This document shows positions 9,232 to 37,760 of a stretch of 37,760 nt of DNA, piece by piece (within the stretch, counting starts at the first letter, position 1; every line of letters begins with the position of its first letter). A model generated the notes under the pieces. It had not been told where the DNA came from and did no database searches. It saw only the letters and a program-made list of their open reading frames with translations. The stretch is taken from the NCBI GenBank assembly GCA_949283135.1, contig CASDRM010000041.1:1-37760 (forward strand), given 5' to 3'. A program made the position numbers and the translations under genes. Origin of the DNA: an uncultured Ruminococcus sp. (lineage in GTDB: Bacteria > Bacillota > Clostridia > Oscillospirales > Ruminococcaceae).

Positions 9232-10092
9232 ATGTCAAGCAGGCTTTATATTGTCGGAACGCCGATAGGCAATCTCGGCGACATAACATTCCGCGCGGTC
9301 GAGACGCTCAAAAGCGTCGACTTCATAGCGGCGGAGGACACAAGGGTGTCGGCTAAGCTGCTCAATTACCTTGGCATAAAAAAGCCGATGCTCAGCTATC
9401 ACGAGCATAACCACAAGTACGCGGGGGAAAGCATAATCAAGAGGCTGGAGTCGGGCGAGAGCTGCGCGGTGATAACCGACGCCGGAATGCCCTGCATATC
9501 AGACCCGGGCGAGGACATAGTCAGGCTCTGCGCCGAGCGGGGCATACCCGTCGAGGTGGTTCCAGGGCCCAGCGCGCTGATATCCGCGCTCGCGGTGAGC
9601 GGGCTGGACACCTCAAGGTTCGTATTCGAGGGCTTTCCCTCGGTTACCAAGCGCTCGAGGTATGAGGCGCTCGCAGCAGCCGCCAACGAGACAAGAACGC
9701 TTATTTACTACGAAGCCCCGCACAAGCTGTCGGCGACGCTTGCGGATCTTCTTAAATTCTTCGGAGACAGGCGTGTGACCATATGCCGTGAGCTGACAAA
9801 GCTCCACGAGGAGATAATAAGAACGACCCTTTCGGAGGCGGTCGGGCTTTATCCTGCGGACAGCTCGCCAAGGGGAGAGTTTGTTCTTATAGTCGAGGGC
9901 AGGCGCGAGACCGAGGCTGCGCCCCTTACCGCCGAGGAGGCTCTCGAAAAGGTCAGGGCGCTGGTGGAAAAGGGAATGAGAGGCGCGGACGCCTGTCGGG
10001 AGATAGCCAGGACTACAGGCTTTACAAAGAGCGAGCTGTATTCCATGCTTCTGACCTCGCCGGAACAGGACGGTACCGGTGCTAAGGAGTAA
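9232..10092 (+). CDS. rsmI: 16S rRNA (cytidine-1402 2'-O) methyltransferase RsmI
   Basis: Methylates the ribose of C1402 in the 16S decoding centre using SAM. It is a 286-residue member of the tetrapyrrole-methylase fold. Seen: LYIVGTPIGNLGDIT at residues 5-19, AAEDTR, a SYHEHN motif, VITDAGMPCISDPG, and VPGPSALISALAVSG. The ATG at 9232 is preferred over a TTG at 9217 because a GGGAG ribosome binding site sits 8 nt upstream of the ATG and the TTG overlaps that site. The gene is complete and lies between the TrmN6-like gene and rimI. Confidence 0.95.
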   Translation: MSSRLYIVGTPIGNLGDITFRAVETLKSVDFIAAEDTRVSAKLLNYLGIKKPMLSYHEHNHKYAGESIIKRLESGESCAVITDAGMPCISDPGEDIVRLCAERGIPVEVVPGPSALISALAVSGLDTSRFVFEGFPSVTKRSRYEALAAAANETRTLIYYEAPHKLSATLADLLKFFGDRRVTICRELTKLHEEIIRTTLSEAVGLYPADSSPRGEFVLIVEGRRETEAAPLTAEEALEKVRALVEKGMRGADACREIARTTGFTKSELYSMLLTSPEQDGTGAKE

Positions 10093-10113
10093 AAAGGACG
10101 CTAAGGATATTGT

Positions 10114-10551
10114 ATGAAGGATATACCCGGACTTATAATAAGAGACACCCTGCCTGAGGATCTGGCGGGTATAATGGAAATTGAGCGGAGCTGCTTTTCA
10201 TCCGAGGCGTGGAGCGAAGGCGATTTTCTGTACCGCCTTGACAAGCCGGAGTTTGTCACTCTGACCGCGACTTTTGACGGCGAGGTGGCAGGCTACATAG
10301 CGGTGACGGGAGTGTGCGGCGCTTCGGTGGACAGCGTGGCTGTGAGTAAAAAATTCAGGCGGCTGGGGATAGCCTCCCGCCTGATGACAGAAGCCCTGTC
10401 CCGCTGCGGCGAGACCGCGTTTTTGGAGGTAAGAGAGTCCAACAAGCCCGCCATAGAGCTGTATAAGAGCCTCGGCTTCAGAAAAATAGGCGTAAGGAGA
10501 GGCTATTACGACTCTCCCGAGGAGGACGCCGTTGTCATGTCAAGAGAATAG
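10114..10551 (+). CDS. rimI: GNAT acetyltransferase, RimI (ribosomal protein S18 N-alanine acetyltransferase)
   Basis: A 145-residue GNAT enzyme that in E. coli acetylates the N-terminus of ribosomal protein S18 from acetyl-CoA. The acetyl-CoA loop appears as RRLGIASRLM near residues 89-98. The C-terminal LEVRESNKPAIELYKSLGF and RRGYYDSPEEDAVVM blocks are characteristic of RimI rather than general GNATs. It stands 12 nt ahead of tsaD, the common rimI-tsaD arrangement. The usual partners tsaB and tsaE are not present in this window. Confidence 0.92.
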   Translation: MKDIPGLIIRDTLPEDLAGIMEIERSCFSSEAWSEGDFLYRLDKPEFVTLTATFDGEVAGYIAVTGVCGASVDSVAVSKKFRRLGIASRLMTEALSRCGETAFLEVRESNKPAIELYKSLGFRKIGVRRGYYDSPEEDAVVMSRE

Positions 10552-12568: not shown

Positions 12569-12700
12569 TAAACCGTTGCAATAAAATCGGAGAGAAAATT
12601 GTATTACCTACGGTTGTATTATACAAAGACGAAATTACGCGCCGCCGTTTTGCCTGCGGCGTCCGGATTATAGTTATAAAAACAAGGAAAGGATACTTTG

Positions 12701-13996
12701 ATGCTGAAAAAAATAATTTGCACCCTTTTATCCGCCGCGCTCCTGCTCAGCTTCAGCGCGTGCTCTGACATAGGGGATTCCGGCAATCTGCCGTCAGGCA
12801 CTACCGTGTCTCAGGACTCGGAAAGCAGCTCGGTAACTACCGCTTCCGGATCGGAAGACGACTCCCGGCCGGTCACTACCGTTGCCGGTGAGGACAGCGA
12901 AATAGCCAAGAACTGGAACTATGAGTTTGATTACCACTTCATAGAGGAAAACGGAATAGAGTACATCTGGAACCAGCTCGATGAGGACACAAAAATGAAC
13001 CTCGGCGAGGTCATGAACGCCATCAGGAACGTGCAGCTATACTGCCCGCTTACCGTCGGCTTCCCCAAGGAGGACGGTCAGAAGTTCCTTGAGCTCGTGT
13101 CAAACTGCACGATGTTCTATTCATACGCCTCGAACAACTTCAGACTGCACATCGACGACAGCGATACGGTAAAGGGCGTCACCATCAGTTATCTTATCAA
13201 CTATGAGAGCGAGGGCTTCGAGAGAAACGAGGCGCTTGAAGCCAAGCTCCAGGAGATAGTCGCCGGCGCGCCTGCGGGGGATGAGTTCGAGAGGATAAAG
13301 TATCTTCACGACTACCTCATCTTGAACTGCGACTACAGCGAGGACGCTGTGAGCCCGTTTTCTGCCTACGGCTCGATAGTCGAGGGCAGGGCGACCTGCC
13401 AGGGCTACGCGGACGGAATGCACCTGCTTTTGGACAGAGCCGGCTACGAGACCGCCTACGCGGTAGGCGAGGGCTCGGAGGGTGTAAGGCATAAGTGGAA
13501 CTATGTAAAGCTCTCAGACGGCAAGTGGTATATCATCGACCCCACATGGGACGACCCGGAGAACAAGACCGAGGCTGACTACATCGGCTATGATTACTTC
13601 TTTATATCCGACGAGATGATTCTAAGAGACCACCACGCCAAGTTTGACAGCGATTACTATGAGACCCCGGTAGCCGAGTCGATGGATAAGAGCTATCACA
13701 AGATGATGGGCTATGTCGCGACAAACGCCGACGAGGCGTACGACGTGCTGCTCGCTCAGGCGATAGAGACCGCAAAGGACGGAAGAAGATACCTGTATCT
13801 GAGGTTTGACGACGGAGAGGCTTTAGCCGAGGCCTATGAGGAGATCAGCTCTGGAGGAGACGGAAACAACCGCATGCAGTCGATAATCGAGCAGGCAAAC
13901 GAGGCTGCGGGAACAAACTTCTCCACAACAAGCTGGGTAAAGAGCCTCAATGAGGAGCTCGGCACCCTCACCATAACGCTTAAGACCGCTGAATAA
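12701..13996 (+). CDS. Transglutaminase-like domain lipoprotein
   Basis: An exported protein of 431 residues with a short signal peptide and a putative lipobox FSAC (Cys21), then a Ser/Thr-rich linker to about residue 65. The C-terminal half has the transglutaminase-like protease core: Cys in RATCQGYADG, His in RHKWNYVK and Asp in IIDPTWDDP, the expected triad order. Such bacterial domains are often cysteine peptidases or amidases acting at the cell surface; the substrate is unknown. The ATG at 12701 is preferred over a TTG 3 nt upstream because AAAGGA then has 7-nt spacing. The next gene is a paralogue 26 nt downstream, so the two form an operon. Confidence 0.85.
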   Translation: MLKKIICTLLSAALLLSFSACSDIGDSGNLPSGTTVSQDSESSSVTTASGSEDDSRPVTTVAGEDSEIAKNWNYEFDYHFIEENGIEYIWNQLDEDTKMNLGEVMNAIRNVQLYCPLTVGFPKEDGQKFLELVSNCTMFYSYASNNFRLHIDDSDTVKGVTISYLINYESEGFERNEALEAKLQEIVAGAPAGDEFERIKYLHDYLILNCDYSEDAVSPFSAYGSIVEGRATCQGYADGMHLLLDRAGYETAYAVGEGSEGVRHKWNYVKLSDGKWYIIDPTWDDPENKTEADYIGYDYFFISDEMILRDHHAKFDSDYYETPVAESMDKSYHKMMGYVATNADEAYDVLLAQAIETAKDGRRYLYLRFDDGEALAEAYEEISSGGDGNNRMQSIIEQANEAAGTNFSTTSWVKSLNEELGTLTITLKTAE

Positions 13997-14022
13997 TAAG
14001 AAAATATATCGGAGGTAAAAAG

Positions 14023-15678
14023 ATGAACAGATTCAAAAGACTGACCGCGCTGCTTCTCGCGCTTGTGATGAGCGTCGGAATTCTTGCCGGATGCGGCGAT
14101 ACTATCGACGAGACTCAGACCACTACGCCGGCAGCTACGACCGAGGTGACCACCGAGCCGCCCGTAACCACCGTTCCCGCCACCACTACAGAGCCCGCTG
14201 CAACTACAGTGCCGGTTACCACCGCTCCCCCTGCGACTACCACAGAGGCAACGACGACCGAGAAGGTTACGACTTCAGCCACTGAGAGCAAGCCGCAGTT
14301 CACCGTTGAGGAAATGTCGGCGAAAATGTACGCTACCGACGCGGTAAACGTCAGAAGCGGTCCGAGCGCGGACTACGACAGAATAGGCGGCTTGCAGGCC
14401 GGAGACGAGGCGATAGTCACCGGACGTGCTTCCACAGGCTGGTACAGGATAAACTATAACGGCAAGGTTGGATATGTAAGCAACGCTTACCTGTCAGATA
14501 AAGCTCCGTCTGATGTTCCGTCCTCTGATGATGACGAGGATGTAACAATAGATGAGGGCAATGACGATGATGAGGATATCACTATCGACGAGGGCGATAA
14601 CACCGGCACAGTGGCTTACGGCGACTGGGCAGAGGACAACGGCTGGGAGTACATGCTCTCCGTGATGAATGACGACAGATACATAACCGTCATCAACCAG
14701 ATAGCCGAGGGTATGCAGAACCTTGAGACCGAGATACTTGTAGAGCCGGTTATCACCGAGGACGAGGTCTATGACTTCACTCAGCTCATTCTCCCCCTCA
14801 TTGCGGTCGAGTATTGCTATGTGGACAGAGTCACATCGGTTACGACCTATTCCAATACCGGAATGCTCAAGAGTGTTAAGGTAGACTACTATGTAAATAC
14901 CAAGGCTGAGGCTGACAAAATGGTCTCTGAGCTCAGAAGTGCGGCCAATAAGGTTCTTTCCGGTGTAAAGAGCTCCTGGAGCGACTACCAGAAGGTTCAG
15001 TACATCCACGACTGGATAATCCTCAACAGCACTCCTGATGCGGAAAATATCGGCGGACCTCATGCCTCTAACGCATACGGCGCTATAGTAGATGGCACAC
15101 CCACCTGCCTCGGCTACGCGAAGGGTCTGTTCTACCTGTTGTCCAAGGAAGGCTTTGATACCACCTTCGGAGTGGGCATAGGATCATCCGCTAAGCACAT
15201 CTGGGTAAAGGTCAAGGTCGGCTCCGAGTGGTACAACATCGACGCCACATGGGACGATCCGGTAACTCCTACTACCGCCGATCCTGATCTTATCTACTAT
15301 GATTACTTTATGGTTACTGACGAGTTCATGGAGAGATCGCATGCCGAGGTATACGACATGAGGTTCTTCCGCGAGCCTTCCGCAACATCTCTCAGATATA
15401 ACTGGCACAACGTCAACGGCTACTACGCCACCAGCATGAGTGAGGCTGAGGACATAATTGAGCAGGCTACCCGCGACGCAGTCAACGGGGGCGGAGAGTT
15501 TGAATATGTGAGAATCAAGTTCTCTTCGCAGTCGCTCTATCAGCAGTTCTCCGACAAGTACAGCCGTTCAAACTACTCGACCAGCATCCTTGAGGATATA
15601 ACCTCGAGGTACACCTGCTCGAACAAGTACCTCGGCTCGTCCACATGGACGCTGACCTATAAGCTGGTCAAGGACTGA
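14023..15678 (+). CDS. SH3b- and transglutaminase-domain lipoprotein with Thr-rich linker
   Basis: A 551-residue exported lipoprotein with signal peptide and lipobox LAGC (Cys24). Residues 31-92 are an extreme Thr/Pro/Ala/Val tract (repeats of TTT, VTT, ATT), likely an extended and possibly glycosylated wall spacer. A bacterial SH3 domain follows at about 103-160 (NVRSGPSADYDRIGGL through GKVGYVSNAYL), which typically binds peptidoglycan. Then come two imperfect acidic repeats, DDDEDVTIDEGN and DDDEDITIDEGD. The C-terminal half is a transglutaminase core with Cys in TPTCLGYAKG, His in SAKHIWVKV and Asp in NIDATWDDP. It is a tandem paralogue of the preceding gene that has gained a wall-binding module. 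GGAGG precedes the ATG. Peptidoglycan-linked peptide processing is an inference. Confidence 0.88.
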   Translation: MNRFKRLTALLLALVMSVGILAGCGDTIDETQTTTPAATTEVTTEPPVTTVPATTTEPAATTVPVTTAPPATTTEATTTEKVTTSATESKPQFTVEEMSAKMYATDAVNVRSGPSADYDRIGGLQAGDEAIVTGRASTGWYRINYNGKVGYVSNAYLSDKAPSDVPSSDDDEDVTIDEGNDDDEDITIDEGDNTGTVAYGDWAEDNGWEYMLSVMNDDRYITVINQIAEGMQNLETEILVEPVITEDEVYDFTQLILPLIAVEYCYVDRVTSVTTYSNTGMLKSVKVDYYVNTKAEADKMVSELRSAANKVLSGVKSSWSDYQKVQYIHDWIILNSTPDAENIGGPHASNAYGAIVDGTPTCLGYAKGLFYLLSKEGFDTTFGVGIGSSAKHIWVKVKVGSEWYNIDATWDDPVTPTTADPDLIYYDYFMVTDEFMERSHAEVYDMRFFREPSATSLRYNWHNVNGYYATSMSEAEDIIEQATRDAVNGGGEFEYVRIKFSSQSLYQQFSDKYSRSNYSTSILEDITSRYTCSNKYLGSSTWTLTYKLVKD

Positions 15679-36673: not shown

Positions 36674-37510
36674 ATGACAAGAATATTTGGCTTATTTTTT
36701 GCGATAATTCTGATTTTTACATTTTGCGCGTGCGAGCGCAGAAACGGCACAAACGAGACGCAGAGCGTCGGAACAGATACTCAGCCGGTGCAGGAGCATG
36801 TTGTAACAACCTTTGTCGCGCCCGCCGAGGAAGTTACTGAGAGCAATGAGACCGGTAGCGTTAAGGATGAGGAAAGCTCTGTGCCGGACGATGAACCGTA
36901 TACATACGAGGTCGAAATAATTGATGACGCCGGCTCCGGAGAACCTGTAAGCTATCAGGATTTAAGGGACGGATATCTTCGCTATTACGACAATCTCTCG
37001 TTTATATCGTATGAGATAGTGTCGGTATACAGCCCCGAGGAAGCGTTCGAGCTTACCGGAGAAGAGGCGTTTACGAGAAGGACTACTCTTTATAACGTTC
37101 ACGTTTATTACGACCACATTCTTGACGAGGAAGTGGACTACAATATGAATATAGCTCATGTGGGAAACACTCAGGAGCAGCTGCTTGGATTTCCGATGTA
37201 TGAGACAGGAATGAGGTTTGCCGCAGCGGTGTTTGGTTCAAGCGACACTTGGCGCGTGCCGGTAGGAGAGCTTGAATTTCTTTTGTTATCCGAAAACGGT
37301 GATGAAATCGCATATCATATAGGTTCTGCACCGGTTTCCGGCACAGATGGCAGCTTGCCGATGAATGATGAGCTTGATGCAGACGAGTGCGAGTTGATGC
37401 TTTCGGCGTCTAATAACCCGATGGTGCTTTCATCAAAGGCACGGGTCGAAGAGCTCGGAGAGTTTATTCGAGGCGACTGGAGTGGCGCAGGGATAGTCGA
37501 AGCGGAATAG
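36674..37510 (+). CDS. Hypothetical acidic lipoprotein
   Basis: A 278-residue exported protein with a signal peptide (hydrophobic residues 5-17) and a lipobox-like FCAC ending at Cys20. An acidic, Thr/Ser/Glu-rich linker extends to about residue 75. The C-terminal domain is acidic with mixed alpha/beta character (for example YEIVSVYSPEEAFELTGEEAF and YNVHVYYDHILDEEVDYNM). I recognise no catalytic motif or family. It is monocistronic with its own strong promoter and a GGAG site upstream. It could be a surface-binding lipoprotein, but no specific role can be read. Confidence 0.7.
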   Translation: MTRIFGLFFAIILIFTFCACERRNGTNETQSVGTDTQPVQEHVVTTFVAPAEEVTESNETGSVKDEESSVPDDEPYTYEVEIIDDAGSGEPVSYQDLRDGYLRYYDNLSFISYEIVSVYSPEEAFELTGEEAFTRRTTLYNVHVYYDHILDEEVDYNMNIAHVGNTQEQLLGFPMYETGMRFAAAVFGSSDTWRVPVGELEFLLLSENGDEIAYHIGSAPVSGTDGSLPMNDELDADECELMLSASNNPMVLSSKARVEELGEFIRGDWSGAGIVEAE

Positions 37511-37558: not shown

Positions 37559-37625
37559 AACAAAAACGCCGCGAGTATTCCCGCGACGAAATTGACACTG
37601 ACGAAATTGACACTGGAGCGGATTA
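37559..37625. repeat. Repeat copy 1, including an internal 15-bp tandem duplication
   Basis: This segment matches 37709-37760 exactly for 52 bases, except that copy 1 carries an extra 15 bases: GACGAAATTGACACT occurs twice in tandem at 37585-37599 and 37600-37614. The shared part covers a minus-strand terminator and the 3' end of a tRNA-like sequence. Confidence 0.9.
37561..37588 (-). terminator. Minus-strand intrinsic terminator downstream of the tRNA-like element
   Basis: On the minus strand CGTCGCG, loop GGAATACT, CGCGGCG (7 bp with one G-U) is followed by TTTTTG. It directly follows the 3' CCA of the tRNA-like element on that strand, after a 25-nt spacer. Confidence 0.75.
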
Positions 37626-37676
37626 CGAGGCTCGAACTCGCTGCTTCTGCGCTCATGCCGGGTGAGCTAAATCCGC
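37614..37676 (-). pseudogene. tRNA-Gly-like sequence lacking the anticodon arm
   Basis: On the minus strand, acceptor GCGGATT (37676-37670) pairs perfectly with AATCCGC (37624-37618), the discriminator is T and an encoded CCA follows (37616-37614). The D-arm is GCTC/GAGC with a GG-containing loop; the T-arm is GCGAG, TTCGAGC, CTCGT. U73, the G1-C72 start and this T-arm closely match bacterial tRNA-Gly. Between D-arm and T-arm only nine bases occur (GCAGAAGCA), where about 23 (bases 26-48) are expected, so the anticodon stem-loop is missing. It is 60 nt plus CCA. It is either a decayed duplicate or a non-decoding tRNA-like RNA; no anticodon can be given. Confidence 0.6.
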
Positions 37677-37708
37677 ATATATCAGCCGGAACAAGCGGCA
37701 GTATTGTT

Positions 37709-37760
37709 AACAAAAACGCCGCGAGTATTCCCGCGACGAAATTGACACTGGAGCGGATTA
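37709..37760. repeat. Repeat copy 2, truncated by the window end
   Basis: Copy of 37559-37625 without the 15-bp duplication, 52 bases long and ending at the last base of the window. It contains a second minus-strand terminator (37711-37738), the encoded CCA and the tRNA 3' acceptor strand (37749-37760). Whether the rest of a full tRNA-Gly follows beyond the window is unknown. The two copies start 150 nt apart. Confidence 0.9.
37711..37738 (-). terminator. Minus-strand terminator, second repeat copy
   Basis: Identical hairpin and T-run to the one at 37561-37588. It would end transcription of a tRNA or tRNA-like gene that starts beyond the window end. The spacer between this terminator and the copy 1 tRNA-like sequence (37677-37710) is A/T-rich, with a small GCCG/CGGC hairpin, and shows only weak promoter matches. 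Confidence 0.7.

Follow-up and report, generated by a model that had tools for sequence, protein, structure and literature searches.

A tRNA-Gly copy without an anticodon arm in a tandem array downstream of rplQ in an uncultured Ruminococcus, most likely a decaying duplicate

Staphylococci use a non-proteinogenic tRNA-Gly for their cell-wall bridges, and this molecule keeps a complete anticodon arm. The copy described here belongs to the same tRNA-Gly family and likewise has U73, but it possesses no anticodon arm. Another point of comparison is tRNA-Other of Bacillus cereus, a pseudo-tRNA with a Trp anticodon for which expression and a deletion phenotype are reported (PMC3399842). Both are tRNA relics unsuited to translation, whereas the present copy has no anticodon. 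New tRNA gene copies can also arise by tandem duplication, as experiments in Pseudomonas have shown for far larger duplications (PMC7661048). Our locus resembles tandem tRNA duplications that include a defective copy, namely in its head-to-tail units, in the complete copy present in a relative and in the truncated copies that decay further. It differs from the usual tandem tRNA pseudogene in that the defective unit has been multiplied, is common to three species and lacks exactly the anticodon arm. No description of a bacterial tRNA lacking this arm turned up in a limited literature search.

Structure of the armless copy

The window, i.e., the whole stretch of 37,760 nucleotides that was analysed, corresponds to the entire contig C41 of a genome assembly (G000) of 1.63 Mb in 127 contigs. 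Near its end, the following features can be distinguished:

37614 to 37676, minus strand: 63-nt tRNA-Gly relic with acceptor, D arm, 9-nt linker, T arm, U73 and CCA, anticodon arm absent (direct reading, pair check, fold, homology with full-length tRNA-Gly genes in relatives)
37567 to 37588, minus strand: intrinsic terminator of the window unit with a 9-bp stem, AATA loop and TTTTTG tail (terminator scan; relatives have a near-identical one behind their complete tRNA-Gly(GCC))
37589 to 37613, minus strand: linker from CCA to terminator, holding a 15-nt direct duplication, so that the unit measures 150 and not 135 nt (direct reading, repeat search, alignment)
37677 to 37716, minus strand: spacer that separates the tRNA body from the terminator of the upstream unit, in which no sigma-70-like promoter was found (terminator and promoter scan)
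37717 to 37738, minus strand: terminator of the next (upstream) tandem unit (repeat and terminator scan)
37749 to 37760, minus strand: next tandem tRNA-Gly copy, 3' end only (TAATCCGCTCCA), cut by the contig end (direct reading)

Read 5' to 3', the body is GCGGATT-TA-GCTC-ACCCGGCAT-GAGC-GCAGAAGCA-GCGAG-TTCGAGC-CTCGT-AATCCGC-T-CCA. Standard pairs occupy all 16 stem positions (acceptor 7, D 4, T 5) and the predicted minimum-energy fold shows the same three arms, while nine bases between the D stem and the T stem stand in place of the anticodon arm and the variable loop. The original prediction had read the arms, U73, the encoded CCA and the nine-base gap in this way, and direct reading bears it out. 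It had also placed an intrinsic terminator after the body, which a terminator scan finds at 37588-37567 of the minus strand, and a recurrence of the terminator and the tRNA 3' end 150 nt away, which is an exact direct repeat (37559-37600 and 37709-37750). Fifteen nucleotides of this spacing are a local duplication of ACGAAATTGACACTG. The contig ends at 37760, inside the next repeat, and the remainder of the array was not found in the other contigs of this genome.

The suggested check with tRNA models had a negative outcome. ARAGORN calls no tRNA in the window and the Rfam tRNA model yields no match reaching E=1 over the copy; its likeness to tRNA is established instead through homology to tRNA-Gly genes. 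A chance hairpin is ruled out by 97-100 % matches of 28-31-nt stretches of the 3' half to tRNA-Gly genes of many relatives. The complete cloverleaf with a glycine anticodon that a functional tRNA-Gly would show is absent. As a possible second short tRNA of G000 we considered a 55-nt match (L033), which proved to be an ordinary tRNA with, by eye, a GGC anticodon, cut by a contig end. Elsewhere in the window (12698-15678), two adjoining secreted proteins have, by eye, related transglutaminase-like regions, the second one also a threonine-rich stretch and an SH3-like part.

Parent gene and distribution of the array

Further genus members possess a cassette tRNA-Gly(GCC)-CAATTTCGTCGCGGGAATACCTGCGGCGTTTTTG (or near), which usually closes a Val-Asp-Phe-Gly operon (e.g., L038, L042). 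It has the same acceptor stem, D stem, T arm, U73 and CCA as the window copy, and the CGTCGCGGG-AATA terminator is common to both. Unlike the window copy, the cassette has a complete anticodon arm, is not seen in tandem and has a D loop that is one base shorter. By sequence comparison, the window copy is the genus tRNA-Gly(GCC) minus about 14 nt of anticodon arm, plus one D-loop base and a few substitutions.

The same chromosomal place, behind rpoA-rplQ and with tRNA units that run on the opposite strand, is occupied in two further genomes, Candidatus Faeciplasma pullistercoris of the Oscillospiraceae (G012, DVLL01000003.1) and Ruminococcus sp. UBA1828 (G021, DDJI01000108.1). The whole region matches that of G012 at 1.8e-70. 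In G012 (contig C15), there are four units of about 135 nt, of which the furthest upstream, the head, is recognised by ARAGORN as a complete tRNA-Gly(CCC) while the remaining three are armless. This head and the tRNA-Gly(GCC) cassette of the genus provide the complete parent in relatives that is expected of a pseudogene. G021 has a single armless copy, preceded by a tRNA-Phe without the 5' acceptor part that ARAGORN does not recognise as a tRNA. This tRNA-Phe relic (L095, contig C6, minus strand, about 10070-10161) has kept its anticodon arm but not its 5' acceptor strand, and the flank is repeated on both sides. The array contigs of all three genomes end in or beside the array.

The head gene of G012 (L094:9877-9952) has the sequence of a GCC-family tRNA-Gly with one anticodon base changed, so that it reads CCC; a tandem copy may thus have switched its anticodon from GCC to CCC. 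In a non-exhaustive census it is the only tRNA-Gly(CCC) of this genome, next to one TCC and two GCC genes. In the G000 assembly, the only tRNA-Gly found is TCC, the GCC gene having probably been lost in assembly gaps at tRNA repeats.

The search of close genomes that had been proposed thus recovered the same deletion at the syntenic place in G012 and G021, and no exact armless form in the other 28 genus genomes. This distribution refers to zero-mismatch pattern hits; hits with 1-3 mismatches exist in G005, G020, G003, G011 and others. For 27 of these 28 genomes the rplQ neighbourhood was retrieved, and ARAGORN finds no tRNA-Gly in any of the 27. A GTDB-wide contig collection, in which the window's own record is possibly not included, gave matches only to DVLL01000003.1 and DDJI01000108.1. 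Among 394 genomes of the order, the armless pattern matched G000, scattered unrelated places and, in many genomes, the normal anticodon arm of a different tRNA, by eye apparently tRNA-Thr(CGT). A pattern with a canonical T arm, which is also unable to match the window copy, detected no armless tRNA in 299 genomes of the phylum.

Decay of sister copies and exchange between species

Five armless copies can be compared: that of G000, units 2-4 of G012 and that of G021. In G012 units 2 and 3, the T-loop TTCGAGC has become ATCACAC, and unit 2 has in addition a T-C mismatch at acceptor pair 4. In the G021 copy, one T-stem pair is an A-C mismatch, and neither this copy nor G012 unit 2 still has the three-arm shape as its minimum-energy fold. 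G012 unit 4 is like the window copy, with 16/16 pairs and the T-loop intact. These two copies, each the closest in its genome to the end of the array, show 3 differences over 63 bases, roughly what is seen at the fourfold sites of nine genes compared between the two genomes (5.5 % different). When the units of G012 are compared with one another, 4-11 of 63 positions differ in the bodies and 3-6 of 77 in the flanks; in this genome, conservation of the armless bodies does not exceed that of spacers and terminators.

According to the original prediction, intact pairing in all three arms spoke mildly against simple decay. This argument is weak, since only the two most similar copies (G000 and G012 unit 4) show the intact arms and the bodies are kept no better than the spacers. 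Random deletions and mismatched stems at the same locus in relatives had been named as the outcome that would speak against a function. Mismatched stems and destroyed T-loops do occur (G012 units 2 and 3, and G021), but the deletion is the same throughout.

Across the five copies, which as relatives are not independent samples, the stems are the less variable part, with changes in 4/32 stem columns versus 11/31 of the others (Fisher p=0.04). This could be at most a weak sign of function, because the copies are only five and related and because gene conversion from the complete head copy is possible. None of the 16 base pairs is changed on both sides, 13 pairs are invariant and two cells are unpaired, a comparison to which five copies give little power.

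Recombination has also been at work around the array. The upstream genes of G021, in the ribosomal-protein region, are about 81 % identical to those of G000 and G012, with 47 % fourfold differences between G000 and G021. Adjoining the array, a gene that looks like a trans-aconitate methyltransferase by prediction (L095:8880-10069 and L094:8342-9534) is identical between G012 and G021 at 800 of 810 positions, with 2 of 109 fourfold sites changed; no relative of it was found in G000. Since this gene is 99 % identical while the upstream genes reach only about 81 %, the block beside the array must have been exchanged recently, and by these comparisons the sharing of the array locus between species is at least partly recent. 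Despite the near-identical methyltransferase, G012 unit 4 and the G021 copy differ at 10 of 63 bases. They are either different units of the array or fast-changing, and either speaks against tight constraint. The lipoprotein-like gene that follows rplQ (window 36674-37510; L094:7322-8146) is a further mosaic: over its last 600 bases, G000 and G012 agree at 592 positions with no change at 89 fourfold sites, while the N-terminal parts look unrelated, which would suit an exchange of the front end.

Competing explanations and meaning

We consider the window copy a tRNA-Gly pseudogene in a small tandem array shaped by unequal crossing-over, with a complete head and non-functional followers (probability roughly 0.85). 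A tRNA-Gly and terminator cassette would have reached the place behind rplQ in one genus lineage and been duplicated head to tail in units of about 135-150 nt. One copy would then have deleted about 14 nt of the anticodon arm, perhaps through slippage at the arm's own hairpin, and unequal crossing-over would have multiplied the defective unit. A complete gene can survive at the head of such an array, as in G012, where it is now a tRNA-Gly(CCC), while follower copies with a terminator in front and no recognisable promoter would decay and recombination would move the locus between species. The window copy itself would be non-functional and a complete copy would lie past 37760 in G000. The amplification of the armless form to three copies in G012 counts against the pseudogene reading.

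The original prediction had left the choice between a pseudogene from tandem duplication and a decoy, amino acid carrier or cell-wall glycine donor. The comparative evidence favours the former, and the latter has no positive evidence in its favour. As an alternative, the copy may encode a stable tRNA-like RNA, charged with glycine or not, that is retained because of its acceptor/T-arm end; outside translation it might serve as a donor, decoy or regulator, like the staphylococcal non-proteinogenic tRNA-Gly or tRNA-Other of Bacillus cereus. The arms, U73, G1-C72 and CCA intact in G000 and G012 unit 4, a terminator kept in each unit and the lower variation of stems would suit such an RNA, and tRNA relics can gain functions (PMC3399842). 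Against it stand the loss of the T-loop motif in two of the three armless G012 copies, the T-stem mismatch of G021 and the restriction to three genomes whose locus is partly common through recent recombination. Expression and charging offer it little help either. A scan with a sigma-70-like consensus recognised no promoter in the array spacers of G000 and G012, and each unit is preceded by the terminator of the previous one; transcripts might still arise from an unusual promoter or by read-through of these terminators. The bacterial glycine identity set comprises U73, G1-C72, C2-G71, G3-C70, C35 and C36 (PMC9976931). The window copy has the acceptor elements but not C35 and C36, so the full set is absent, and because these two bases belong to it, normal glycine charging of the armless copy is unlikely. 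On balance, an RNA of this kind is improbable. Its more specific version, in which a gut Oscillospiraceae lineage keeps and amplifies the 63-nt armless tRNA-Gly as a stable small RNA of which only the acceptor/T-arm half would be used, e.g., as a decoy for tRNA-processing or tRNA-binding proteins, appears slightly more doubtful still.

The two remaining explanations are both very improbable. A short-read chimera at a repeat, the true locus holding complete tRNAs only, would fit the three contigs that all end in or beside the array, as is typical of unresolved repeats, and the metagenomic origin of DVLL01000003.1 and DDJI01000108.1, but the identical deletion was assembled independently in three genomes with differing unit lengths and sequences. 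tRNA 3' ends are common attachment sites of integrative elements, and the repeated tRNA 3' end and terminator could thus be attachment-site copies left after integration and loss, a view that the recent exchange between species downstream of rplQ would suit; however, the repeat unit of G012 is the whole spacer-tRNA-terminator in short tandem, and no integrase or cargo is evident by eye in the adjoining ORF lists up to the contig ends.

Should the copy yield a functional RNA, bacteria would possess a tRNA-like molecule entirely without an anticodon arm. The armless tRNA-Gly is most likely a rare but ordinary feature, a decaying duplicate. If it is a pseudogene only, the tandem array explains the assembly break at 37760, and the locus offers a snapshot of tRNA genes multiplying and dying via tandem duplication.
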